Below, piece after piece: positions 1,989 through 31,569 of a stretch of DNA of 41,332 nt (position 1 is its first letter; every line of letters starts with the position of its first letter). Position numbers and translations under genes: made by a program. The notes beneath the pieces are model-generated. The model was not told the origin of the DNA. It made no database searches and saw only the letters and a program-made list of their open reading frames with translations. The stretch is from a virus, in IMG/VR virus record IMGVR_UViG_3300021170_000037, positions 1 through 41,332 of that record. The stretch is one strand, 5' to 3'.

Positions 1989-4223
1989 CTACGGTGTGTA
2001 AGGCACGATGACCGAAGCCACCTTGGTCTTGTCCAGAATCACAGACTGGCGCGGGTTCAGGATGCCGTCGCCATGTACCAGATGGTCGATATTGGCGGAG
2101 GCAGCGTCCAAGTTCGGCCATGTTGTCTTAATGTCGAGCAACCCCTCTTGGTGGAGATATTGCGCCTGGACCAGCACGGCGCGCGTGGTTTCCAGATATT
2201 CCCAGCCAATCATGGCCTTGCCGCCGTTGTAGGGGTCCCCGCCCTTGGCTGGGTCTAGAGCGTCGATCTGGGCCTGGGTTGGCGGCACTTGCTGGCCCGT
2301 CACCCCGTTGAGGAACGACTGATACCAACTTGGAGCCGAGCCATCCTGATAATATTGGCAGCCATAGCCTGGCGGGTATTTCTGGTAGGAATAGTCGGCG
2401 CGGGCCATGACATTGCCGAGCGCCCACAGATAGATCGGTCCCCATTCCTTGTGGCCGGTCAGGATGCCGAAGGCGAGCGCCGACAACACATAGTCGGCCA
2501 TCCATGGGGCAAAGAACGACATGCCACCGGGCACGATCAGCCGGAACACTTGGCAGGCCGGATCGGTCAGCACCGAACTATAATAGGCCCGCGAGTTGTC
2601 GAGCAGCGTTTGAAAATAGCTCGAAGGATGCAGCCACTTCGGCCATGGCTTTCCGGCAGCCGCGAACTTCGCTTCCATGTCGGCAGTAGCGACGTGAGCG
2701 GCGAACAGGTCGCGCATTCCCCAACCCCAGCCGCGGTATTCACCTGTTATGATCGCTTTACGAAACGAACTGCTTAAATAGGCATCGCACAACACCATAA
2801 AGTTGGCCTGGTATTGCAGGTTCTCCAAGAAGCCGAGATCGTCTGTGAATTGATGAGCCATATAGCTCAGTTCGGGATAGTGAGCCTGCTGCGGCGTCCA
2901 GCCACCGCCCCACTGAGAATAGACCGGAGCTTTCGCATCGGGTATGCCCTTACAAAGCCAGGGCGATCCCTGCAGGCCCGGAAGATCGGCAGCATTGGCG
3001 CTCGGGTAGGTCAGCAAGCTGATCGGGCGATCGGTAGTCTGGTCGCGGAAGAAAATCGGAATGCTGTCGGCAGCCAGGCCCGCATCTATCATGCCACCGG
3101 GGTCTTGGCCCAGCATGGCATAGGCGCTGCTGTCCCTGATAAGTCCCCGGTCAGGCCCCTCGCCAGTGGTCGGCATATACACGGTGATATTATCAGCCGA
3201 GCCCATCAGGGTGTATTTTATACGCGCCGGCTGTGGCGCGATTGGAATGCCAGTGTCGCCGTACGGGAAAGCGCGATGCCGGTTCACGATATCGGCAGGC
3301 GAGCGAATGATCTTGATCGGGCAGTTGGTTCGGTCAGTCCAGCGCTGGTTCCAGGCATGGCCGGGAATGTTGAATTTACCGACCGTGTAGGGTGCCAGGT
3401 TGTGCGCCAGCGCCATGTCGGTGTTGGCGGGCGGCGGTGGCAGAAGTTCGCCCAGTTGAGTCACAACGCGCCCATCTTCCCTGGTCAGCGTCACAAGCGT
3501 CGGATCGGCAGGCGGAGGCGGGAACGGCCCAACCGGCGGCGGGGCCGGTTCCGGCGCGGGAGGCGGCGGAACTGGCGTCGGGCCAGGCGCGGGCGGATTG
3601 ACGGGTCCGCTGGCTGGCGGGTTCAACAGGAACGTGGCCGCGCATCCGTACAGTACGAAGCTGTTGCCGGTGGAATGCACATCCTGCCACACCTTGCCGC
3701 CGTTCGGCGTGTCTGGCTGGGCGACCAGTTGCAGACTTATGGGCCAGATGACAGTGACAACCGTTTGGCCATTGCCCTGGACATTGCCAACGATATGAAG
3801 CGTGCCGGTTGAAGCGGTCAGGTCCAGCGTGGCCGTGGCGGCGCTGGTAATGACATCCAGCGGCGTCGGGGTTTCGATCTTGGAGGTCGGCGACGGCGAG
3901 CCAGTGGCACCAGTAATACCAGTCGTCCCGGTCGTGCCTGTGGCCCCGCCAGTAGCGCCTGTGGCCCCTGTTGCGCCCCCGGTGGCTCCCGGCGGCGGCG
4001 CGCTTGCTGGGCCACCAGCAGGCCCCGTGGGGCCTTGTGGCCCAGCCGGGCCGGTCGCACCTTGTGGCCCTGTAGGGCCGGGAATGCCCTGCGCCCCTGT
4101 CGGCCCTTGGGGGCCTGCAGGACCGGTTGGACCGGGTACTGGCTTGACCGCCGACAATTTTGTGATCGAGGCGTTGAGCTTGGCGACCGCCGCATTCAAC
4201 TGGTCCTGGGTGGCGTAGGCCAT
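1989..4223 (-). CDS. Collagen-like tail fibre or spike protein
   Basis: A 744-residue protein starting at ATG 4223, with GAGGAG upstream. Residues 1-26 are a short helix (likely a trimerising or anchoring coil). Residues 31-108 are a collagen-like Gly-X-Y tract ([10 protein letters not shown], later GATGATGATG). A small beta-rich domain follows (about 115-200), then a proline-rich linker (201-240). The C-terminal part (about 270-744) is rich in Trp and Tyr and contains [11 protein letters not shown] and [21 protein letters not shown], a helical-repeat pattern I remember from a common uncharacterised phage fibre domain. The same pattern occurs in the 1057-residue spike encoded at 7023-10196. 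A trimeric fibre with a receptor-binding or glycan-degrading head is the likely role. No signal peptide is present, unlike the two other fibre proteins here. It is the last gene of the lysis/fibre run. Confidence 0.72.
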
Positions 4224-7022: not shown

Positions 7023-10000
7023 TTAGAAGGTCTGTTGGAAGGCGTATTTTGCGTCGTTCGGGACGTACCCGCCAATCGCGGACAAGTTGCTTCGCATATC
7101 GGTGATCGTGGTCGAGTCCACCGCACCACCAACCGCCTGCCACCAATTCAAGGCGCCCGTCTCGTTCTGCATGTAGCCGGAGCCAAGCGCGCCGTCATTG
7201 ATCGAAGTGGTTGTGGCGCTTTTCATGCCGTAGGGTGCAGCGCAGACAACATCGCCGCTGCCGGTGCTACTGATCGAAATAGCGCTGCCGCCGAGCGAAT
7301 TGGAGAGATCAAATTTCTTGGTGCTGTTGTTGGCGTTGACCACGTAAAAGCTATGGAAATACCCGCCGTAGGGGCCAAAGGAAGTCAGCTCAGTCGGAGG
7401 CGTTCCAAAGCCATTGCCCCAAAAGCGGATCACATCGCCATTGGTCAGGATATAGCCGGTCGGGAACGTCGTCATCGTGAAGGCCGGCGAACCGGCGGAC
7501 CAGCCGATTGTCCAGTTGCCGCCCGAGGCATTGTTGGCCGTTCCGCAGATTGCGAAATCTGCGGCGCTGGTCAGGTAGACGCCGAAATCCTGCGAGCCCG
7601 CGCCTGGCGTGTTGTACAGCACAAACTCTCGTTGGAGATATTCGTAAGTCGGAATAACCCAAACGCCAAATGTGCTGTCCAGGAATTTCCAGAACTTGGC
7701 CATGTGATTGCCGAGGGTATAATTTCCCCATGTCGGGCTGTCATTGACAGCGGTGATATAGGACAAGGCCATCATGTGATAACCCTGCGCCCAACTTTGG
7801 GATTGTCCTGTCGCTCCGCTTTCGGCCTCGTTGAACGTCCCGATGAACTGGGCGTAGGCCGGAAGCATGCCGATGTACGCCGCCTCTGCGCCGAATTGCG
7901 CCTTCATAATGTCGGTCAAATAAGTATGAATTGAAGCCGCCGCCTGCCCGTCACCCGTGGCCAAGGCCAAGGCAAGTCCTTCCGTGCGGGTCGTCCATGC
8001 TTCCTGGCGTGCAAGATCATCGAACTCGCTGCTGACCCCGTAATAGGTCGTGCCGTTTACGGTGAAGTTTCTGATCGCGGGACCGTTGCTGCCGATGCCG
8101 CCCATGGCGTTGACTTGCGAACTGACTATCGCGGTGCCCGGATTATTGCCGCCCGGCCAATGGATGAGCGCGGCATTGGCCCAGTTGAGCAGGTTGTCTT
8201 CATATTCTTCCTGCCCAAAGGCGAGCAGCGCGTAGTAGTCCCACTCCGGCATATGCGAGAAGTCTATTGTGCTATAGACGCCCAGCCACATATTGGAATT
8301 GTCAACGGGCTGGATGCCGGAAGCCCCGACCGATGAACTGCCGCTCCAATAGAGCGACGTGTTGCCTGTGGGCATTCCGCTATAGGTCGTGATATTGACC
8401 ACGGGAATCGTGTGGGTGCTACTGTTTAACAGCATCACCGGCATGGCCTGCGCATCCAGCGAGGATGCCCGGATCAGGTTTTCGTCGGCTGCGTCCTGAA
8501 GGAAAACGTGGGACGAAACCCACATCGGTTCCGGGCCGATCCAATCGCTTTCGCCTGTGCCGTTCACGCCATTGTCGGTGGAACCAAGGCTATTGGGAAT
8601 ATAGTTGACGATGTGATTGACATTCTGGCCGCCCCCGGTCGCTCCACTGGATATATTTGCATACGGAGTGACGGGCACCGACCCAATAGCATAAGGCGGG
8701 ATCATCCGGGTCGAACGCCAGTAGGTATTGTTGAAGGTGATACGCACATGGCTGTCGGCGGAGACGGAACCATTGCCCTGGAAGAAGTCGTAAAGTCCTG
8801 TGATGTTCGCCGTAAAAAGCGAACCGAACGGAGGAACGTAAGGATAGGCTATGAACGAGCAGGTTCCCGTGCAGTTGGACGACGGGAATATCTGGCTCGC
8901 GCCGGTCGAGTTTCCGTTAGCCAGATTGAACCATGTCGCGTGTGTGGCGCTTCCAGGGTTCTGGAAATAATCGGTGTTAGCCGCCAGTCCGGTCGGGAAC
9001 CCTCCGCCGGTATTGCTGACCTGAATAACAAAAGCGGCGCCGCTAACGTAGCCGGAGGAAACAAAGAAGCCGTTGACCGAATCCCAGGTGAACGTGTTTG
9101 ACACCCCGAACTGGGTGCTGAACATATTCTTGGCCAGGGATGCGCCGTCATAGGTCGCCCAAGCAGAGAATGTGCGGTAGCTTTGATGCGGGCTGGCTAC
9201 ATCATACCAGGGCTGTGACAGGCGATGCATCCAGCGCGCGTATCCAAACGCCCCGCCGCTATCGGCAATCTCCTGGACGTAGAAATATCCTTCGAGCTGA
9301 CCGTGGCAGGCTCCCGATGTATTGGTCAGATGAAAACAATCTCTCAGGCGTTGCACCGCCCCAGCCTGACCGTCCATGTAATTGACGTTATCGGCGTTGG
9401 CCTCCGAAATGGCCTTGGCCAGATCGGACACGTAGGTTCCGGATAGATTCGACAGCCCGGTGACTTTGACATTTGGATCGTGGCCGCCAGCCGTCAGATT
9501 GGAGGCCGAGAACCCGGATGCCGTGGGTTTTGTCCCACCGGAGAGAATATTGATCGTGAGCGCCTGGTAAAGTGTGCCGCCCGTAATCGCGCTCGTGCCC
9601 ATTCCGGTTGGGCCGTTGATCGTCACATTGGAGCCAACGACACTGGCGACGGTGTAAGTTCCGGTCAGTGCGCCCCAATTGCCGGAGCCGGTCAGTCCAT
9701 CGATATTGACAATCGAGCCGCCGGAAACGCCGGTTGGCGTGCTGGCCGTGGTGATGACGATGACGCCGGTGCCGTTGTTGTACGTGCCGGAGGAAATCGC
9801 GTAACTCCCTCCCACGGTGGTTGGTACCTTGAGCATGAAGGGTGCCCATTCCAGCGACCCATCACCCCAGCAAACCGGATGCAGCCCTTCGCTGAACGGC
9901 ACATTGGTGCCGCCGACAAGCTGGAAGACCGGAGCGCCGCCCGAACAGCCGTTCGGCACATCCCCTTTCTTGAAGGGATGCCCGAATATCTGCGTGACGA

Positions 10001-10196
10001 AGTTGGTGGTCTGCGTGGACCCCGAGGTGTTGACAATCGCCAGGGTGGTGACCAGACCACCTGGGGGCGGCCCAGACCCGTTGGGGATACCGCCATGAAT
10101 ACCACGGGCGCCCGTCTGCATCGGCACAACCGCCAATGCCGCAACAATCAAGAAATTGAACGCGCGCCGCGTCCAGGTTTTGAGCTTATCCTTCAT
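7023..10196 (-). CDS. Large fibre/spike protein with Sec signal peptide
   Basis: 1057 residues from ATG 10196; a longer frame to 10301 overlaps the fibre gene and is rejected. Residues 1-32 form a classical signal peptide: KDKLKTWTRR, hydrophobic FNFLIVAALAVVP, then MQTGARG. Small beta domains follow (about 140-215, 370-450 and 905-985). The first resembles the so-called E1-FCCH-like beta module seen in phage tail proteins. Residues about 572-840 carry the motif series HMPEWDYYALLAF, RQEAWTTRTEG, ALATGD and SWAQGYHMMAL, matching the C-terminal half of the collagen fibre. Outside the signal there are eight cysteines in four close or facing pairs (84/109, 287/297, 442/446, 884/985), which fits an oxidising compartment. 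Probable receptor-binding or glycan-degrading spike, or a secreted protein. It sits between the fibre and lysin genes. Confidence 0.65.
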   Translation of the reverse strand: MKDKLKTWTRRAFNFLIVAALAVVPMQTGARGIHGGIPNGSGPPPGGLVTTLAIVNTSGSTQTTNFVTQIFGHPFKKGDVPNGCSGGAPVFQLVGGTNVPFSEGLHPVCWGDGSLEWAPFMLKVPTTVGGSYAISSGTYNNGTGVIVITTASTPTGVSGGSIVNIDGLTGSGNWGALTGTYTVASVVGSNVTINGPTGMGTSAITGGTLYQALTINILSGGTKPTASGFSASNLTAGGHDPNVKVTGLSNLSGTYVSDLAKAISEANADNVNYMDGQAGAVQRLRDCFHLTNTSGACHGQLEGYFYVQEIADSGGAFGYARWMHRLSQPWYDVASPHQSYRTFSAWATYDGASLAKNMFSTQFGVSNTFTWDSVNGFFVSSGYVSGAAFVIQVSNTGGGFPTGLAANTDYFQNPGSATHATWFNLANGNSTGASQIFPSSNCTGTCSFIAYPYVPPFGSLFTANITGLYDFFQGNGSVSADSHVRITFNNTYWRSTRMIPPYAIGSVPVTPYANISSGATGGGQNVNHIVNYIPNSLGSTDNGVNGTGESDWIGPEPMWVSSHVFLQDAADENLIRASSLDAQAMPVMLLNSSTHTIPVVNITTYSGMPTGNTSLYWSGSSSVGASGIQPVDNSNMWLGVYSTIDFSHMPEWDYYALLAFGQEEYEDNLLNWANAALIHWPGGNNPGTAIVSSQVNAMGGIGSNGPAIRNFTVNGTTYYGVSSEFDDLARQEAWTTRTEGLALALATGDGQAAASIHTYLTDIMKAQFGAEAAYIGMLPAYAQFIGTFNEAESGATGQSQSWAQGYHMMALSYITAVNDSPTWGNYTLGNHMAKFWKFLDSTFGVWVIPTYEYLQREFVLYNTPGAGSQDFGVYLTSAADFAICGTANNASGGNWTIGWSAGSPAFTMTTFPTGYILTNGDVIRFWGNGFGTPPTELTSFGPYGGYFHSFYVVNANNSTKKFDLSNSLGGSAISISSTGSGDVVCAAPYGMKSATTTSINDGALGSGYMQNETGALNWWQAVGGAVDSTTITDMRSNLSAIGGYVPNDAKYAFQQTF

Positions 10197-10203
10197 GTCG
10201 CTG

Positions 10204-11811
10204 TTAACCGTTGATCTGATAGTTATAAACGCTGGTATCGCCCGCCACGGCTTTGACACTGAACCCTGTTCCTGGCGTGACGGCGGAGAGGAACGGGGCA
10301 CCGGCAGGCGTGCCGCCCACCGTCTTGAGCGACATGGTGATCACCGAATTGGCGGAGACATGGGTGTTTGAAACGACTACTGCGGTCGCGCCATTGGCCG
10401 TGAAAGTGCCCCCGTTGGACGACGCAAGCGCCGTGCAGGCATTGACTTGATAATTGGCCCCGTCCGAAGTGATCGAGCATCCCGTGTTGGAGGGAATGGT
10501 CAGGGTGGCCGCGCCGTTGATGGTCGAAGTCGCTGGCGTGATCGTGATTAGCCCGGCCCCAAGATTTTGCACATCCGTGGAATAACCGGCACCGAAACTT
10601 CCGGTCGCCTGGGCAATCGTGACCGCAATGGCCGAGGCATTGGAATAGGTGACGAGCTTTCCGCCATCTGCTGCCACCAGGGCGTCCGTCGTGCCCGTCA
10701 CGGCCCGGATGATATAACTGGCGCTGCAGATCACGCTGCCCGTCGTGGGGGAACAGGTGAGGTTCGCAGAGCCGCTGGTGACGGACGCCACGAAAGTCGC
10801 CCATGACGCATCGCCGCGCCAGACATGGGAGCTATCCGCGTTGCTGCCGCTGTTCAGGTTGGCGACCGGCAAATTGCCCGAGATATCGGTCGCAAGGCTA
10901 ACCTGACTATAGGACGGAGCGCCCGAGGCATTGCCATGCAGAACGGTTGAGGTCGTTCCAGGCCCGATGCCGGATACCGCCGTTCCAGCCGATGCGTAAT
11001 ACGCGACTTGGCCGAGTGTGCCGGAGTTGACGGTGCCCGATCCTCCGCCGCCGCCCGTGCAGGAAGAACCGCTGGTCAGACAGATTGAGCCCGTGCCGGA
11101 GGGTGGGAGGGCCAGCGCAGCCGCTACCCCGGTTCCAAGGCCCGCCAAATTGGCGACTTGATACCCCGTGGCATTGGTCAGAACGCAGCCATTGATCAGG
11201 CAGACGGCACCAGTACCGGAAGGGGATAGCGCAAGCGAAGTTGTCAGCCCTGCCCCAAGCCCTGTCAGGTTCGCTAGCTGATACCCTGTGGCGTTGGTCA
11301 GAACGCCCGAAGCGGGCGTGCCGAGTGCCGCGCCATTCGGGAGCGCCGTGCAATCCTTAAGCAGCGTGCCGCTAACATTGTTCCAGCAAGCCAGATCATT
11401 AACGACGCTGGTTCCGGGTCCGGTAACGCCACCTCCCCCGCCCCCAAACGGAAATGGGTACGACACGCCCTGGACGATGAAAGTCAGCGGGGTATTGGTG
11501 GAGAGCGTTGTCAGGCTGCTGGTCTGGCAGAAGGTGAGAAGGCCGGGCGAACTTCCAGGCGTTCCCGCCGTGGTCTGGCTGCTGATGCCGAAGGGACAAC
11601 TCGGCCCGCCAAACAGGCCGAGGCTGTTCAGGAAGGGTGCGCCGGTCGTGCCGCCGTCCTGCAGGATGCCGTTCTGCTGCCAGCTTCCGGGATGGTACTG
11701 GGTGACGGGACCGGATTGCAGCACCGCGCCCTGGCCAAAGACCGGCGGGGCACAGGCCAGAGCGCAGAGCAAGACGCATATCGCGCCGAGATATCTAAGG
11801 TTTAGGCGCAT
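10204..11811 (-). CDS. Tail fibre-like protein with Sec signal peptide
   Basis: 535 residues. The N-terminus MRLNLRYLGAICVLLCALAC continues APPVFGQG, an n-region/h-region/cleavage-site layout. After it come Gly/Ser/Thr-rich fibre repeats: two 40-residue copies (about 169-207 and 209-247) containing VLTNATGYQ[LV]ANL and LxPSGTG, and a GGGGGSG hinge. The C-terminal 170 residues resemble two small proteins encoded at 31129-31569 and 30814-31116, in the same order. Twelve cysteines after the signal fall into six neighbouring pairs (72/95, 142/154, 204/209, 244/251, 353/362, 445/459). The start at 11811 has GGGAG ten bases upstream, inside a strong hairpin. A fibre that is exported before assembly would be odd; see findings. 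Confidence 0.65.
   Translation of the reverse strand: MRLNLRYLGAICVLLCALACAPPVFGQGAVLQSGPVTQYHPGSWQQNGILQDGGTTGAPFLNSLGLFGGPSCPFGISSQTTAGTPGSSPGLLTFCQTSSLTTLSTNTPLTFIVQGVSYPFPFGGGGGGVTGPGTSVVNDLACWNNVSGTLLKDCTALPNGAALGTPASGVLTNATGYQLANLTGLGAGLTTSLALSPSGTGAVCLINGCVLTNATGYQVANLAGLGTGVAAALALPPSGTGSICLTSGSSCTGGGGGSGTVNSGTLGQVAYYASAGTAVSGIGPGTTSTVLHGNASGAPSYSQVSLATDISGNLPVANLNSGSNADSSHVWRGDASWATFVASVTSGSANLTCSPTTGSVICSASYIIRAVTGTTDALVAADGGKLVTYSNASAIAVTIAQATGSFGAGYSTDVQNLGAGLITITPATSTINGAATLTIPSNTGCSITSDGANYQVNACTALASSNGGTFTANGATAVVVSNTHVSANSVITMSLKTVGGTPAGAPFLSAVTPGTGFSVKAVAGDTSVYNYQING
11067..11307 (-). repeat. Two tandem 40-residue repeats inside the fibre gene
   Basis: Residues 169-207 and 209-247 of the 535-residue fibre are near-copies, each with LTNATGYQ, ANL[TA]GLG and PSGTG followed by a CLxxG turn. 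At the DNA level the copies also look alike (ataccctgtggcgttggtcagaacg and ataccccgtggcattggtcagaacg, each read here as under 26 bases of plus strand), so the duplication is recent or is kept alike by recombination. Confidence 0.75.
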
Positions 11812-19922: not shown

Positions 19923-20466
19923 CCTGACCTCCGTGCCCGAACGACGGATGACACCCAAGAGCTATAACAAAACTATCCCCAATAGGGATTTTCATGCGAG
20001 GGTCCGCCACGATAGCCGCGACCATTTCCTTTCGCGATAGATGGCCATCATCATTCTCTCTATCGTGAAACCCCATCGCGACCGCGAACCGGATAGCCGC
20101 TTCATCATTTGGTAGCACAGTAATCGCCACCTCTTTGTGATCGTCCATAATAACCGCCAATTCGGCGCGGGCTTCCTTCACCACCGACACGGGCATCTTG
20201 GTCACTTCATCGGACAGTACAAGCCAGACTAGGGCTTCTTCTCCCAACAGCGTGCCCTTGGCCCCCCACATGGCGACAGGCTTGCCGTCCATCAGAGCGG
20301 TCCTGCAATAGCGTGAGGCGATGAAAGCCCGATGCAGCGCCGCCCGTGGCTCGTAGCCGAAGTCCTGCAAAGTGATACAGGCTGCAGCCCGCAGTTGCGC
20401 CGCCATCGGTTTGATATGGCGTGGGCTTGCGGCAACAACGCTGTATACGGAGCGGGTCATGCTCAT
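19915..20466 (-). CDS. T7 gp13-like virion assembly protein with GNAT-like fold
   Basis: 183 residues. The pattern (PMAAQLRAAACITLQDFGYEP, MDGKPVAMWGAKGTLLGEEA, LVWLVLSDEV, AIRFAVAMGF) resembles acetyltransferase-fold proteins annotated as T7 gp13-like (DUF2833). In T7, gp13 is needed for assembly or stability of the internal core. The order gp13-gp14-gp15 is kept here, which supports the call. The ATG overlaps the stop of the nozzle-like gene (ATGA). Whether it has acetyltransferase activity is unknown. Confidence 0.75.
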   Translation of the reverse strand: MSMTRSVYSVVAASPRHIKPMAAQLRAAACITLQDFGYEPRAALHRAFIASRYCRTALMDGKPVAMWGAKGTLLGEEALVWLVLSDEVTKMPVSVVKEARAELAVIMDDHKEVAITVLPNDEAAIRFAVAMGFHDRENDDGHLSRKEMVAAIVADPRMKIPIGDSFVIALGCHPSFGHGGQDA

Positions 20467-23400
20467 AGTCTGCCCCCTCCGCCGCCAATCATCCAGCGTC
20501 CAGGCCCGCGCTGCTGTTGATGCTCCTGGCCTGCCGATTGCGGCTTGGGCTGATAGGTGACTTCCTGGGCGTCGCCTGGCAGCACCTCCGGCGAAACCAT
20601 GGTCACCTCCAAAGCGAGTGGCAACCGCTGCTGCACGGCCACCTGGCCCTTGCTATTCCAATCTGCGCCGTCCCCGATGACCCGGAAGTCTCCGGTCCAT
20701 ACCTGGGTCACAGTCTGGCCACCGGGGCTTGTATACGTTATGGGCGGGGCCTGCCCGCCTGTCATCTGAGCATAGATCGAGGGCGTCATGGGTGCCCAGT
20801 TGGGGGCCAACTGCTGCGGGTTCTGCGCTCCGCCGTCCGGTTGGTTGGTCCCGAACTCGAATGGCCCGCTGGCGGCGACCCTGACCGTACAGGCTGGAAT
20901 GACCTTCCTGGCTCCTTGCGTCACCTGCTGGCCGTTGAGATATGGTGTCTGCATCTGGGCGGTAAAGGACAGCCCGATTTTCACATTGCTGGCCGGGAAC
21001 GGTAGCGTGGCAATTCCATTGGTGCCCACCGCCAGACCAGAGAACGGCACGCCATCTCCAAGACCGACCACCGTGGTCCCTGCCAGATGGGGAGCATTCA
21101 AAGTGGTGACCTGTTCGGCGATCGACCAGTTGCCGGCCGCCGCGAAAGGCGTGCCCACGACGCCATTGGAAGCCCCCAATAGCCAGGTGCCCGTAACCTG
21201 AAACGGCGAGGTATACGCGGTCACCCTGGCAATTCCTCCGCTCATGCGGATGATCCGGTTTACACTCAAACTGCTGAACGCACTTGCCCCTGCCGTGAAA
21301 GTCACGCCCGTGCCCGACGCCGCGCTGGCTAACAACGTGGTGGAGGGAAAACTCATCGGGTTGGAAACCGCGCAATCCACGGCATAGGCATCCTCAACCG
21401 TCTGCCATAGCCGGTTGTCCATGCGCTCCATGTAATAGCCGCTGCCCGAAACGACGGACGGAGCGCCAAACGACAATTTCAGGAACGGCCCACTGATTTT
21501 GTTGCTATTGATGAACCCTTGGCGGAACGCCAGATAGGCGGGCGTGAGGAAACAGAGATTGGCGCCGGCATCGTTGCCCGCCCAGTAAAAAGCATTCTGC
21601 TGGCTGTCATAAATTCCAGCATCGCCAATGGCGTCTGAAATCTGGAAGGAGCCGAGAGAATTATAAACCACGTTTGTGTTGCCGATACTCGCGCCGTAAG
21701 CGGAATAAGCAGTGTCCCAACCGTTTTCGTCATAAATTTGAACCACCGTAGGCGCTGATCCGGAGGCAAATTTATATTGCACCATGATTGTGTGGGATTT
21801 TGTTACATCATAGGACCACGACCCGGCCACAACGGGTTGCACCTCAAAATAGAACCAGCGCTTGGTGTAATCCACGCCGGAGAAGGCAAAGGTATTTTGC
21901 CCAAGGTAAAGATCGAGTTCGCGCACATTCAGGACCACCCAGGCAGCAAGTGCAGGATTGCTTGTCGGTGCCCACGAAGCGGTCATGTAGCCCGTGACAA
22001 AGCCTTGGTGATAATCGAAGGTATTTCCAGTTAGCTGGACATAAGTGCAATCAAATCGGGTCAGGTTCGGATTGGACCAGCCTGTGGACGTATCTCCTGC
22101 CCAAAGTTTGTTGATGCACACAAGTTCATTGGTCACAGGCAGATAATAGAGCGAGTATTTATTGACCCCGTAAGTCGATGGCGTGGCGAATATTCCGTCC
22201 ACGGTATAGGCGGCGACATTGGAATTTGGGCCTGTCGCCGGTCCCCATGGTGTAATATCGGTGAAGCCGCCACCTACAGTTGGACCTCCAAACGGAGCCG
22301 CAGATGGCTCGTCAAAGCGATGCAACTTGAATGCGCGCGTGCCGGTCTGCGAGCCGCCGTAGATAAACATGCTGGTAGCATGGTTGAGCACGCTGCGAAA
22401 ATAGTACCCATTCCAAAGCGGGTCTTGGACAAATTCCGCATAGGAAACGAGAACATCGAGGGTAATTTCTGGCGACGTGATGGTTCTCGGTATTAATGCC
22501 AATGTGTAGAAATAGGTCTTTGACACCTGCTCCAAACGAACATAAGTCCAATTATCGGAGATTCCGACCAATTCCAGATGTGCGCCCTGGCCTCGGGGAC
22601 CATGGAACGGCGAAATCACTTGCGCGAAATTGTCACTGCGGCGAAACAGATAAATTATGCAGCCGACACCCCCATGATGCCACGCATCGCCCGTTCGGGG
22701 GTCCACCATCAAGGGATCGTCATTGCTGCAGTCAGAATCATCCTCAACGAAGCGCCGCCACGTCCCATCGCTGGGTGTTGCCCCGCCAGCCAAGGTCGCA
22801 CCGCTGGGCGTTCCGCCAGAGGCAGCGCCCAACGTGTAGGCATTTCCCGCAGTGCCACCCGTGCGGTATGTAATCCCCAGAACGGTCGTTCCTGCGGGGC
22901 TTCCATCGTATGCGGTATAATAGGCGCCCGTGAGCGAGCCGTTGGCCGAATTGTTTAAATCCCAAGAGAGTTGTTTGAAGGATGCAAGGGCCGTTGCCTT
23001 GATGTTTGTCTGGTTTCCCGTTGCCCCACTGGTAACAAACGTCCAGGTCACACCGTTGAGTATGATGGTGTCGCCATTGGACGGGTTGGCAGTGAACTCA
23101 TAGTTGCCGATCGCGGTGGGGCCAATACCGGTTGGCACTAGTTTTGTGCTGTCATAACACTGGTGAAACGTCACCGCGTTGGTGTCGATATTCTTCTCAG
23201 CAATCCAGTGGTTGAACTGCGTCCTGGCATCGTAATTACCGCCGATAGCTATCACGCCAAAAACAGCCGTCCCGCCGCCATCCCAAAGCACGAACCCAGT
23301 TGTATTGACCTGGGTGTTGGTGTTGCGGATACCCATGGTGTAGATGAATTTTCGGCCAACGGCGTCAAACCGCCCCCCGGTACTGATCTTGTTTTGAAGC

Positions 23401-26243
23401 CCGAAATTGTTGGGGAGTGTCCCCAAGACATCAATCCCGTTCACCCAAGTTGGATCGTAATTCTCTTCCGTCTCCATGATGTAAGTGCTGGACGAGGATC
23501 GCGACCCGGGCATCAAAAACCGTTTGACAATCACATACACCGCATTGACCGGCGGTTCGCTGACCGATGCGATTCCGACGACAAGACCTTGCGTGTCATG
23601 TCTCGCCCAGCCGTAGACCTCCTGTTCCTTGAGGTAGGTCATGGAAAGCAGCGTGCCATCGTCGCAGCATGCCCACAGCACTTTGTAGGGGTTTCGTGCC
23701 CAGGTCCATTGCACAATCTGGCGATAGAAGAACAAATGACTGGAGAGGATTGTCAGGTCGGTGCCGGTATAGATGTTGGTCCAGAAATTCCACGCCAAGT
23801 CGCGCACAACCGAGCTGATGGCTTCGACATAAAGCACATCGTAGTCAACCACGATGGGCGGGACTGTGGCGGAACAGCCGTTGAAGGCTTGCGGTTGCGC
23901 TTGCGTGGAAGAAGGCGTGATCGGTTGGGCATTGAGATTGTACGAGCCTTCCCCGATGATCTGCCATGCACGTGAGCCAGTGAATGCAATCAGGCCGCCG
24001 GGCATGGGGATCAGCCATTCGATGCCGTTGACTTGTTCGGACCAGGGAGAGGCGGTGATGGCATCGGTCGCCTTGGTGGGAATGCTGGTGTCGAAATTCC
24101 GGTAAAGCCCGGTCTGGCTGGCCCAGAAGGTATCCGGGTCGTTCAACGAATTGGCGAAGAAATGCCGCTGCTGGAAATAAGCATTGACGCCTGGGAACGT
24201 GCCGCTGGTCGGGCCGATATCGAGAGTCCCGGTCGGAGTGCTGGAGGCATTGGTCCCGCCCGTCAGGGTTGCAGCACTTGGGGTCGCGCCGCTTGTCCCA
24301 CCTGCCAGGGTATAGGAATTGCCGATGGTGCCCACAACTTTGTACGTGATGTTCAGGCGCGTGGTTGTCACGGCATAATTGGAGAGCGCGATATTGGCGT
24401 TGAGCGAGGCCGTGAGGTCGAGCTGGAGTTGGGTCAAGGTCGCCGCGAGATTGCCGCCGATATTGGTTTGGTTGCCCGTCGCTCCGGCCGTAACAAAGGT
24501 CCAAGTCACGCCATCCAGGATGATAGTCTGGGTGTTTGTCGGATTGACGGAGAACAAGAGATTGCCGGTGGCTGCCGCGCCTGCCGCGCCTGATCCGGAG
24601 CCGCCCGCCAGCGTGGCCCCGCTCGGTGTCGCCCGGCTGGCCGCGAGGGTATAGGAATTGCCCGCTGAGCCAGCCGTCTTGTAATTGATCAGCAGATTGG
24701 AGTTGGTGATGTCCACGGTATAGGACGCCAGGATAAGCGCGGGATCGGATGAGGCCGACAGATTGGACGCGAGCGATGCCAGTGTCCCCGACAGCGCTCC
24801 GGCAATGACGGTCTGCTGCGGGCCGGTGATCGAGTTTACGAAGGTCCAGACAACCCCATTGAGGGTAACCGTGTCGTTCGCGCTCGGGTTGGTCGAGCCG
24901 AACTGAATGGAGCCGGAGGCAAAACCCGCCCCGTTGAACGCGATAGTGTCTCCGGGCCTGTACAGCTCGCCATTGTTGGTGATGAGAAACCCGCCAAGGC
25001 TGCCGCCGATCACAATCGGATAGCCCACGAAATTCGTGCCCGCTATCGTGGTGATCGCATAGGTCACCACCGTCTGGCCGGAACCGCCGCCCGTGATGTT
25101 CACCGCCAATATCTGGCCGGGCGCGAACGGATTTTGATGCGTGGGCGGGGTCTGCGTCAGATCCACGACCGAGCGGGTATCGAGGAATTGCGTGCCGTAG
25201 GATGAACCGACAAACCCGAAGATACTGCCGGCAGGAACCGGATTTGGCGTGGCCGAACTTCCGGTCCCGGTATCGACGGACGGCGGCGCGCGATAGACGT
25301 TATAGAACTTGGCCCCTGTGACAAACGACCATGTGATGGTGTTGGTGCCCGCCTCAACTTCCAGATCGGCACCGTGGCAACTGGCCGTCGCGGACGCCAC
25401 ACTTTCATTGCCCTTTCCATCCACCGCCGTGACTTGGTAAGCGAAGGTCGCGTTCACGCCATTGCTCGGAGCCTGCGATTGGCATGCCGCAGAGACCGTG
25501 GTAGGCGGTGCAATCGCCGCGTCGAAATCCGTCAGCGTCAGTGTCCAATCCGCAGCAGCCAAGCGCGTCAAATCGTAGGGCGGATATTCGGTGCCCGTGA
25601 CCGGGTTGGAACAGGTCAGCGACATCACATCGGCAGATTGTGCGTATTTCAGATAGGGCAGATCGATCGCTGCATAAGGCGATGTAATCGTGTAAATCCG
25701 TGACAGCGTGCCGCCGCTGATATAGGCGTTGAACGCCGTGGAATCGACGGGGTTTCCGTTCAGGTCATAGAGCGACAGCGAGCCGCTGGAAACGCCGCTG
25801 ACGATATAGGTATTGCGGTTCAACTGCGTCATGCCGACGACGCCAGCGACAAATACCCAATCTCCGTTGTTGAACGGAGTGCCCGTGACCGAGATCACGC
25901 ACGGATTGGCTTGGCTCGCACCAGTGATCGGAATTGGATTTTCCAGGACATAGCCGCCCTGAAAAACAAAGCGGATATAGTTGTCTCCAAATTCGAGGAC
26001 GTAGGCTTGAGTTATATTGAAAATAAATGGGATGGGCCTTGGCGGTCCCGTTCCGGTAAGTGGTTCCTTGCAACGTCCGACGAACGCAAAGCCTCCGCGA
26101 GACATAAGGCCGCCCTTATACGCGACAATCATATTGCGTAAGGTTGTCGCCGAAGAATTGAATTTCGCTAAGTTGACTTCACCATATAACTCTGGCGAAA
26201 TTTCACCTGCGCTGAAGGCTGTTTGTATCGATGTAACGGCCAT
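20463..26243 (-). CDS. Giant tail nozzle-like protein with repeated beta-rich insertions
   Basis: 1926 residues. The first 200 residues match phage nozzle or tail-tube-B proteins: TAFSAGEISPELYGEVNLAK, then LRNMIVAYKGGLMSRGGFAF, and an E1-FCCH-like beta module (about 112-186) ending in SPYAAIDLPYLKYAQSADVM. A fibronectin-III-like segment follows (about 245-320, ending FYNVYRAP). Two tandem 100-residue repeats (450-548, 558-664) come next. The nozzle core resumes at 683-920 (AYFQQRHFFANSLNDPDTFW, IEWLIPMPGG). A third repeat lies at 1048-1155. The C-terminal 700 residues are beta-rich and Trp/Tyr-rich without a known pattern. Usual nozzle proteins are under 1000 residues, so the gene has grown by insertion. 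It follows three adaptor genes, as expected for the neck. Confidence 0.78.
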   Translation of the reverse strand: MAVTSIQTAFSAGEISPELYGEVNLAKFNSSATTLRNMIVAYKGGLMSRGGFAFVGRCKEPLTGTGPPRPIPFIFNITQAYVLEFGDNYIRFVFQGGYVLENPIPITGASQANPCVISVTGTPFNNGDWVFVAGVVGMTQLNRNTYIVSGVSSGSLSLYDLNGNPVDSTAFNAYISGGTLSRIYTITSPYAAIDLPYLKYAQSADVMSLTCSNPVTGTEYPPYDLTRLAAADWTLTLTDFDAAIAPPTTVSAACQSQAPSNGVNATFAYQVTAVDGKGNESVASATASCHGADLEVEAGTNTITWSFVTGAKFYNVYRAPPSVDTGTGSSATPNPVPAGSIFGFVGSSYGTQFLDTRSVVDLTQTPPTHQNPFAPGQILAVNITGGGSGQTVVTYAITTIAGTNFVGYPIVIGGSLGGFLITNNGELYRPGDTIAFNGAGFASGSIQFGSTNPSANDTVTLNGVVWTFVNSITGPQQTVIAGALSGTLASLASNLSASSDPALILASYTVDITNSNLLINYKTAGSAGNSYTLAASRATPSGATLAGGSGSGAAGAAATGNLLFSVNPTNTQTIILDGVTWTFVTAGATGNQTNIGGNLAATLTQLQLDLTASLNANIALSNYAVTTTRLNITYKVVGTIGNSYTLAGGTSGATPSAATLTGGTNASSTPTGTLDIGPTSGTFPGVNAYFQQRHFFANSLNDPDTFWASQTGLYRNFDTSIPTKATDAITASPWSEQVNGIEWLIPMPGGLIAFTGSRAWQIIGEGSYNLNAQPITPSSTQAQPQAFNGCSATVPPIVVDYDVLYVEAISSVVRDLAWNFWTNIYTGTDLTILSSHLFFYRQIVQWTWARNPYKVLWACCDDGTLLSMTYLKEQEVYGWARHDTQGLVVGIASVSEPPVNAVYVIVKRFLMPGSRSSSSTYIMETEENYDPTWVNGIDVLGTLPNNFGLQNKISTGGRFDAVGRKFIYTMGIRNTNTQVNTTGFVLWDGGGTAVFGVIAIGGNYDARTQFNHWIAEKNIDTNAVTFHQCYDSTKLVPTGIGPTAIGNYEFTANPSNGDTIILNGVTWTFVTSGATGNQTNIKATALASFKQLSWDLNNSANGSLTGAYYTAYDGSPAGTTVLGITYRTGGTAGNAYTLGAASGGTPSGATLAGGATPSDGTWRRFVEDDSDCSNDDPLMVDPRTGDAWHHGGVGCIIYLFRRSDNFAQVISPFHGPRGQGAHLELVGISDNWTYVRLEQVSKTYFYTLALIPRTITSPEITLDVLVSYAEFVQDPLWNGYYFRSVLNHATSMFIYGGSQTGTRAFKLHRFDEPSAAPFGGPTVGGGFTDITPWGPATGPNSNVAAYTVDGIFATPSTYGVNKYSLYYLPVTNELVCINKLWAGDTSTGWSNPNLTRFDCTYVQLTGNTFDYHQGFVTGYMTASWAPTSNPALAAWVVLNVRELDLYLGQNTFAFSGVDYTKRWFYFEVQPVVAGSWSYDVTKSHTIMVQYKFASGSAPTVVQIYDENGWDTAYSAYGASIGNTNVVYNSLGSFQISDAIGDAGIYDSQQNAFYWAGNDAGANLCFLTPAYLAFRQGFINSNKISGPFLKLSFGAPSVVSGSGYYMERMDNRLWQTVEDAYAVDCAVSNPMSFPSTTLLASAASGTGVTFTAGASAFSSLSVNRIIRMSGGIARVTAYTSPFQVTGTWLLGASNGVVGTPFAAAGNWSIAEQVTTLNAPHLAGTTVVGLGDGVPFSGLAVGTNGIATLPFPASNVKIGLSFTAQMQTPYLNGQQVTQGARKVIPACTVRVAASGPFEFGTNQPDGGAQNPQQLAPNWAPMTPSIYAQMTGGQAPPITYTSPGGQTVTQVWTGDFRVIGDGADWNSKGQVAVQQRLPLALEVTMVSPEVLPGDAQEVTYQPKPQSAGQEHQQQRGPGRWMIGGGGGRL
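22779..23102 (-). repeat. Third, distant copy of the nozzle repeat domain
   Basis: Residues 1048-1155 repeat the same plan (GDTIILNGVTWTFVTSGATG, LGITYRTGG, GNAYTLGA, SGATLAGGA). It stands about 385 residues after the second copy, on the other side of the nozzle core, so the domain was inserted twice or moved within the gene. Its opening is closer to the second copy (WTFVT, ATGNQTNI) than to the first. Confidence 0.8.
24252..24896 (-). repeat. Two tandem copies of a ~100-residue domain in the nozzle protein
   Basis: Residues 450-548 and 558-664 share the plan: [DT]T[VI][TI]L[ND]GVxWTFV, then Q[TN] and NL, then a loop with N[LI][LT]xxYK, GNSYTLA and SGATLAGG-like endings. They are separated by a Gly/Ala linker. 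Copies differ enough at residue level that the duplication is old. Confidence 0.8.
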
Positions 26244-30813: not shown

Positions 30814-31116
30814 TCAGCCGATAATTAAATAGTTATAAACCGACGTATCCGACGCCGTGCCCAGAACCGTAAACCCGGTGCCCGGCGTGATCGTCGCGAT
30901 ATGCGGGAACACGCCAACCGTGCCGCCCACGGTCTGAAGCGTAATCAGGATGTTGGAATTGGCGGTCACATTGGCATTCGCCACCGTCACGGGCGTTGCC
31001 CCGTTCAGCGTGAACGAGCCTTGGGCACAATTCAGAAAGCTCTGCGTCGAAGTTCCGAGGCCGCCGGGGACAATCGGGAGAACGCTGCCGCTGCCGATCG
31101 CTGCTGTTTGTACCAT
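30814..31116 (-). CDS. Decoration-like beta protein, related to the fibre C-terminus
   Basis: 100 residues. The C-terminal half (GSFTLNGATPVTVANANVTA, ITLQTVGGT, PHIATITPGTGFTVLGTASD, TSVYNYLIIG) matches the last 70 residues of the 535-residue fibre (GTFTANGATAVVVSNTHVSA, TPGTGFSVKA, DTSVYNYQING) nearly motif for motif. AAGGAG precedes the ATG. Likely a small trimerising or decorating beta domain on capsid or tail. Confidence 0.68.
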   Translation of the reverse strand: MVQTAAIGSGSVLPIVPGGLGTSTQSFLNCAQGSFTLNGATPVTVANANVTANSNILITLQTVGGTVGVFPHIATITPGTGFTVLGTASDTSVYNYLIIG

Positions 31117-31128
31117 GACGGAATCTCC

Positions 31129-31569
31129 TTATGAGGGAAGCAGCGGCAGCGAGTACCACTGGGTTGCGGAAGTTGCGTAAAGCATGACGGGCACGCCGTT
31201 GGCGCAGGTGAGCGCGCCATGAGCGGCAATCGCGTTGATCGTCGCTGCGGCGTCGGGAAAGATGATGAGCGGTTGGCCGGCGACCGAATTGAACAGCGTG
31301 CAAATCGTACCGGGTGTCGGGACGGCTGGGAGCTTTACCGCCTTGGTGCCGTCCGAAGCCGTAACCAAGGTGAAGCCTGGGCTCAACTGCGCGGCTGTCG
31401 CCAGATTTGTGCCTGTCGCGGCAACCGGTGTGTTGGGCGTTGAGACGCCAAGACTACGGATTTGCCCGGCGGTCAGGGTCGCAAGAACGGCCCCGCCATT
31501 ATCGGCACGAATTATTTCCGAGCCGGTCGGGTTGGTGATTGCTACTGCGCCTGCGCCGTAAACGCCCAT
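31129..31569 (-). CDS. Decoration-like beta protein, related to a fibre module
   Basis: 146 residues, Thr/Ala/Gly-rich beta protein. Segments such as LVTASDGTKAVKLPAVPTPG, TICTLFNSVAGQPLIIFPDA and GVPVMLYATSATQWYSLPLL resemble residues 367-460 of the 535-residue fibre (VAADGGKLVTYSNASAIAVTI, VQNLGAGLITITPATSTINGA) in order. It is directly followed by the 100-residue protein, and the fibre carries both modules fused. A decoration or fibre-tip role is likely; no named family. Confidence 0.6.
   Translation of the reverse strand: MGVYGAGAVAITNPTGSEIIRADNGGAVLATLTAGQIRSLGVSTPNTPVAATGTNLATAAQLSPGFTLVTASDGTKAVKLPAVPTPGTICTLFNSVAGQPLIIFPDAAATINAIAAHGALTCANGVPVMLYATSATQWYSLPLLPS

Follow-up and report, generated by a model that had tools for sequence, protein, structure and literature searches.

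Two fibre-like genes of a tailed phage, with relatives of one, suggest receptor-binding proteins that leave the cytoplasm to fold

The window studied here, meaning the whole stretch of DNA analysed, is the 41,332-base IMG/VR virus record IMGVR_UViG_3300021170_000037 (positions 1 to 41,332). Its genes are of podovirus type and lie nearly all on the minus strand; they include those for a portal, a capsid protein, three tail-tubular-A-like proteins (phrog_394), a tail protein of 1926 aa and internal virion proteins, the portal and capsid being assigned from their place and from a gene layout like that of relatives, not from a profile match. After the internal virion proteins come a gene for a 535-aa fibre-like protein with predicted export (10204..11811, minus strand), a gene for a 1057-aa protein (7023..10196, minus strand), a cell-wall hydrolase gene (PF07486), other lysis-type genes and a collagen fibre gene. 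Both reading frames lie where a sequence-only reading of this DNA had placed them, and the collagen fibre (1989-4223) lacks a signal, as that reading had said. From the relatives only, we infer that the host belongs to the Hyphomicrobiales. The tail protein (20463-26243) is enlarged at 1926 aa, its counterparts in relatives having about 1000-1330 aa, and the C-terminal part of the collagen-repeat fibre has neither a known domain nor relatives in ten related phages. A small serine recombinase of the resolvase/invertase type (1089-1925) adjoins this fibre and led us to ask whether the fibre region is switched by DNA inversion; this was rejected, as we found only weak inverted repeats and no convincing inversion sites. 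Near the capsid genes, signal-less counterparts of the predicted exported domains were found at 31129-31569 and at 30814..31116 (minus strand), the latter encoding a 100-aa protein with the same K1-lyase_C domain as the 535-aa protein.

The start of the 535-aa protein is nearly forced, because its stop-to-stop frame comprises only 546 codons. The N-terminus reads MRLNLRYLGAICVLLCALACAPPVFG, followed after the predicted cleavage point by QGAVLQSG. Residues 1-26 (11734..11811, minus strand) form a predicted signal peptide with a positive n-region, a hydrophobic h-region, small residues at -3 and -1 and predicted cleavage between VFG and Q; it scored 4.9 under our rule, aligned with the signals of relatives and contained a helix (residues 5-19) in the AlphaFold2 model, which had a mean pLDDT of 43 and was confident only in this N-terminal stretch. 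A lipoprotein (SPII) reading was rejected, as the ALAC in the window signal is atypical compared with the lipobox [LVI][ASTVI][GAS]C and relatives do not keep its cysteine; also rejected was a signal-less isoform made from a second, internal start, which is not conserved across the family. The mature protein would begin with the motif QGAVLQSGPVTQYH...ILQDGG (11644..11733, minus strand), which is like the N-terminus of signal-less proteins in the relatives L036/L052 and L053. The N-terminal module had no Pfam match, and the signal and this motif stand in place of a virion-anchor domain. Further along are the hairpin motif CWNNVSGTLLKDC with Cys142 and Cys154 (11350..11388, minus strand), a phrog_15797-like domain at residues 364-461 (10429..10722, minus strand; E 3.4e-6) with Cys445 and Cys459, and a K1-lyase_C domain (PF24146) at residues 468-533 (10213..10410, minus strand; E 1.4e-8); these two domains, together with homologues from phage tail regions, are of fibre type. 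The 12 cysteines after the signal (72, 95, 142, 154, 204, 209, 244, 251, 353, 362, 445, and 459) were paired with their neighbours more tightly than under random placement (p=0.0026).

The 1057-aa protein is a putative exported spike or enzyme. Its predicted signal peptide (residues 1-30; 10107..10196, minus strand) also scored 4.9, and its TRRAFNF stretch looks Tat-like, so export could be by Sec or Tat. The signal depends on the ATG at 10196, 7 bases past an upstream stop codon, and an alternative upstream GTG at 10301 would bury it. Eight cysteines follow, in the adjacent pairs 84/109 (9870..9947), 287/297 (9306..9338), 442/446 (8859..8873), and 884/985 (7242..7547), all on the minus strand, and these four pairs were again tighter than random placement (p=0.015). 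The sequence-only reading had proposed a signal peptide on both proteins, 12 and 8 cysteines after the signals and their arrangement in close pairs; the rule scores, the counts and the pairing beyond chance all agreed with it. The protein had no detectable relatives in IMG/VR, INPHARED, 397 genomes, ten relative phages, Pfam, PHROGs, or PDB, so that its case rests on its own sequence. No fibre-type domain was found in it with Pfam or PHROGs, the AlphaFold2 model had a mean pLDDT of 34, and an enzyme domain shared with the collagen fibre was unsupported by BLASTP. Its signal and four adjacent cysteine pairs plausibly agree with the export picture drawn from the 535-aa protein. Neither window protein contained a polysaccharide depolymerase catalytic domain; tblastn of both whole proteins against INPHARED returned no relatives, and PDB searches with both gave nothing meaningful.

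Members of the family of the 535-aa protein occur in about 25 IMG/VR contigs, in a prophage of Rhizobium sp. BK313 and in a MAG of the Hyphomicrobiales. When the N-terminal module was aligned, 27 IMG/VR loci were recovered, two of them matching the hairpin motif only, and among 397 genomes from the order of Rhizobium BK313 the module occurred in a single one, BK313 itself. A signal peptide was present in every full-length member with a readable N-terminus. These signals are SPI-type, variable in sequence and constant in kind, most of them ending in [AVS]-x-[AG] before a Q, which is the predicted mature N-terminus in nearly all members; L028 has P at -1, a poor cleavage site. The rule used throughout is home-made and not SignalP, and takes in the charge of the n-region, a 10-residue h-region and the residues at -3 and -1; 25 of 26 parsed members passed it, compared with 7 of 167 antisense shadow ORFs, and the remaining member, L030, failed it and has a signal peptide by eye. 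After the signal come the shared mature motif and then interchangeable fibre or spike domains. The IMG/VR and BK313 relatives thus have the N-terminal module and cysteine pairs of the 535-aa protein but carry other C-terminal domains and are often longer: in L003 the module is fused to a pectate-lyase-like beta-helix (the only PF12708 match among the relatives, slightly below the curated cut-off and a candidate depolymerase domain), and elsewhere to a domain common to the AH02 major tropism determinant protein. Other signal-bearing genes contain Gly_rich_2 or T7-type fibre segments.

Counting cysteines after the predicted cleavage site in 26 contigs, we found an even number in 46 of 50 signal-bearing genes versus 91 of 209 signal-less genes (Fisher p=1e-10); partly homologous proteins are included in the parity statistics, and the p-values therefore overstate independence. 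Large signal-less genes on these contigs were even in 25/50. Even counts were seen in 21 of 24 members of the module family (odd in three) and in 31 of 32 signal-bearing genes outside it. The excess persisted outside the shared module (19/23, p=0.0013), where adjacent pairing was also tight (combined p=2e-10). Both cysteines of the ACWNNxxGTLLKDC hairpin were present in every signal-bearing first copy and both were lost in the second copies of L025 and L036, while both partners of cysteine pair 1 were missing in L009 and L026. Judged from these sequences, cysteines are gained and lost in pairs.

Four fibre domains are common to these signal-bearing proteins and to signal-less phage proteins, and serve as natural controls. 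The hairpin had no cysteine at either position in ctpbd312, the Rhizobium phages RHph_Y21 and RHph_TM3_3_13, RcKemmy, or Boilgate, nor in the signal-less L039. The C-terminal domain of the signal-bearing protein of G399 (about 776 aa) has a C..C pair whose first partner was missing in 7/7 homologues from other phages (Caulobacter S2B, the cyanophages PSS2, SS120-1, and S-CBP2, and others), and a cysteine pair in a domain of G404 is missing from the signal-less homologue of that domain in ct7L0027. The phrog_15797-like domain with Cys445/459 in the window was free of any cysteine in its Arthrobacter and Streptomyces phage homologues; in ct3Oc712, two cysteines of a signal-less fibre lie within a single strand of this domain, not at the 445/459 positions, and the signal-bearing protein of L007 has a different pair in it. 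The signal itself was absent from all cultured-phage homologues examined. It looks as though exported copies acquired disulfides repeatedly and independently.

Reading five relatives over their whole length, we found signal-bearing genes interspersed with those for head and tail, and in four of these relatives also downstream of internal virion proteins, the place of the two window genes (the 720-aa gene of G403 was so placed by eye). The system, described as unusual in the sequence-only reading, is wider than was thought there, as several genes in the structural region of the relatives bear a signal. A second signal-bearing family lies near head genes (L014:4052, L015:873, L023:3964, L032:1870, L040:6246, and others), with proteins of about 160 or 430-460 aa and the motif PTDLxQxVxxGxPxAxxxYA; its 160-aa form has a cysteine pair, both members of which are missing in L033:2184. 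In the BK313 prophage (G407), no signal-less fibre was recognised among ten other proteins scanned, and the obvious candidate for receptor binding there is the beta-helix protein that bears a signal. The signal-less neighbour in L053 starts with MPSGNPVLQSGNNITPQHLASWTTDGVIQDSG, resembling the mature start of the module (ALA, then QNGAPVKQGGNVTPTHVGAWTTNGVLQDGG after the cleavage point), and the signal-less neighbour in L036 has a Met start with the motif that signal-bearing proteins would expose after predicted cleavage. It is as if the mature N-terminus and the N-terminus of the signal-less neighbours docked on the same partner. Several relatives also encode porin-like proteins, which possibly serve the exclusion of other phages: G403 has an outer-membrane beta-barrel protein (L060:7988-9031; PF13505), and host-porin-like N-termini (AADLPxKAPP) occur in L036 at about 10413 and in L053 at about 8911.

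Taken as a whole, the two fibre-like genes and the relatives of the 535-aa one suggest that receptor-binding proteins leave the cytoplasm to fold. The sequence evidence for real export and disulfides is strong, and export of this system is very probable. For the 535-aa protein, the earlier proposal of export with disulfides has good support from the family signals, the even cysteine counts and the paired gain and loss; for the 1057-aa protein it is plausible. Our best explanation, to which we assign a probability of roughly 0.55, is that these are receptor-binding fibres or spikes that mature in the periplasm and join virions around lysis. Both proteins would be made with an export signal, exported and freed of it; folding would follow in the periplasm, where the paired cysteines would become disulfides. 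In members of the 535-aa family, the N-terminus exposed by cleavage (Q-x-x-[LIV]LQ-x-G-x-x-T-x-G-H...) would probably serve as a docking peptide, and the variable C-terminal domains would bind surface polysaccharide or cleave it. Once the cell is opened by holin and endolysin, the exported proteins would meet finished heads and tails and complete the virion. The signal peptides, conserved mature motif, paired cysteines, fibre domains and structural-operon position are the basis of this explanation in the sequence, from which we infer cleavage, actual disulfides, docking, assembly at lysis and receptor binding.

Given export, incorporation into the virion is somewhat better than an even bet. 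The same export and disulfide evidence would fit equally well with proteins that are exported and never enter the virion, having instead a periplasmic or outside role, such as binding the receptor from within against superinfection and readsorption to debris, or acting as free depolymerases or adhesins released at lysis. T5 Llp is known to act as a receptor blocker in the periplasm, some relatives encode a porin-like protein (PF13505) and therefore such phages do export surface proteins, and the window phage has another, signal-less fibre, the collagen one, which also counts against our best explanation; nor did we find a precedent among tailed phages for a periplasmic spike reaching a cytoplasmic virion. 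However, the genes lie between those for head, tail tube and internal virion proteins and not apart from them, several different fibre domain types are involved, the mature N-terminal motif is common to signal-less structural-region proteins, and no other fibre was recognised in G407. We therefore favour a virion role on the grounds of fibre and spike domains, operon position, the motif shared with signal-less neighbours and the BK313 prophage, and hold a purely non-virion role to be a real but clearly less probable option. Attachment after lysis is feasible because P22 tailspikes attach to particles outside the cell, as established in vitro.

A very unlikely reading takes the N-terminal hydrophobic helix as an uncleaved attachment or membrane-active element of fibres assembled in the cytoplasm like others. 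The fibre domains and operon position, which are those of ordinary virion proteins, speak for it, as does the poor cleavage site of L028 with its P at -1; but the n-, h- and c-regions are classical, nearly all members having small residues at -1 and -3 and a Q at +1, even and paired cysteines are specific to signal-bearing copies, and the signal-less homologues start at about the predicted cleavage point of the signal-bearing ones. A less probable but real option, of about the same weight as the non-virion role, is that the 535-aa protein is exported as proposed and the 1057-aa protein has nothing to do with it, being perhaps an enzyme that is Tat-exported or linked to lysis and merely adjoins the lysis cassette. 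Its want of detected relatives, its twin-arginine-like n-region and the cell-wall hydrolase encoded next to it would suit such an enzyme; against this, it occupies the same place, downstream of internal virion proteins, as the signal-bearing, mostly even-cysteine genes of G399, G401, G403, and G404, and its 8 cysteines form four adjacent pairs. Extending the periplasmic-maturation reading to the lineage, we would give even odds to a group of Hyphomicrobiales tailed phages with Sec-routed fibres or spikes, periplasmic disulfides and virion completion outside the cytoplasm at lysis, in which one docking motif is common to signal-less and signal-bearing proteins.

The proteins resemble podovirus tailspikes and fibres (T7 gp17 type, beta-helix, K1 lyase spikes) in late structural gene position, in beta-helix, K1-lyase_C, Gly-rich and other fibre domains and in modular C-terminal exchange, and differ from them in that an export signal and a short mature motif replace the virion anchor domain and in that the cysteines are paired. 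Filamentous phages likewise have virion proteins with cleavable signal peptides (pIII and pVIII; here predicted), and pIII has periplasmic disulfides, but inoviruses assemble at the membrane and extrude, whereas the phages described here have tails, and their heads form in the cytoplasm. Receptor blockers such as T5 Llp are also exported proteins encoded by phages and could encounter receptors in the envelope; Llp itself is a lipoprotein of small size, unlike the 535-aa family with its SPI-type signals and large fibre domains. We found no earlier description of signal-bearing tailed-phage fibres in the literature searched, which left most subscription journals outside. In the textbook view, tailed phages assemble in the reducing cytoplasm. 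If receptor-binding proteins are exported first, disulfide-stabilised fibres, dependence on host Sec/Dsb and post-lysis attachment would enter phage biology, and annotating signal-bearing phage genes as lysis or accessory genes would miss receptor-binding proteins; the even-cysteine signature offers a simple means of finding more of them.
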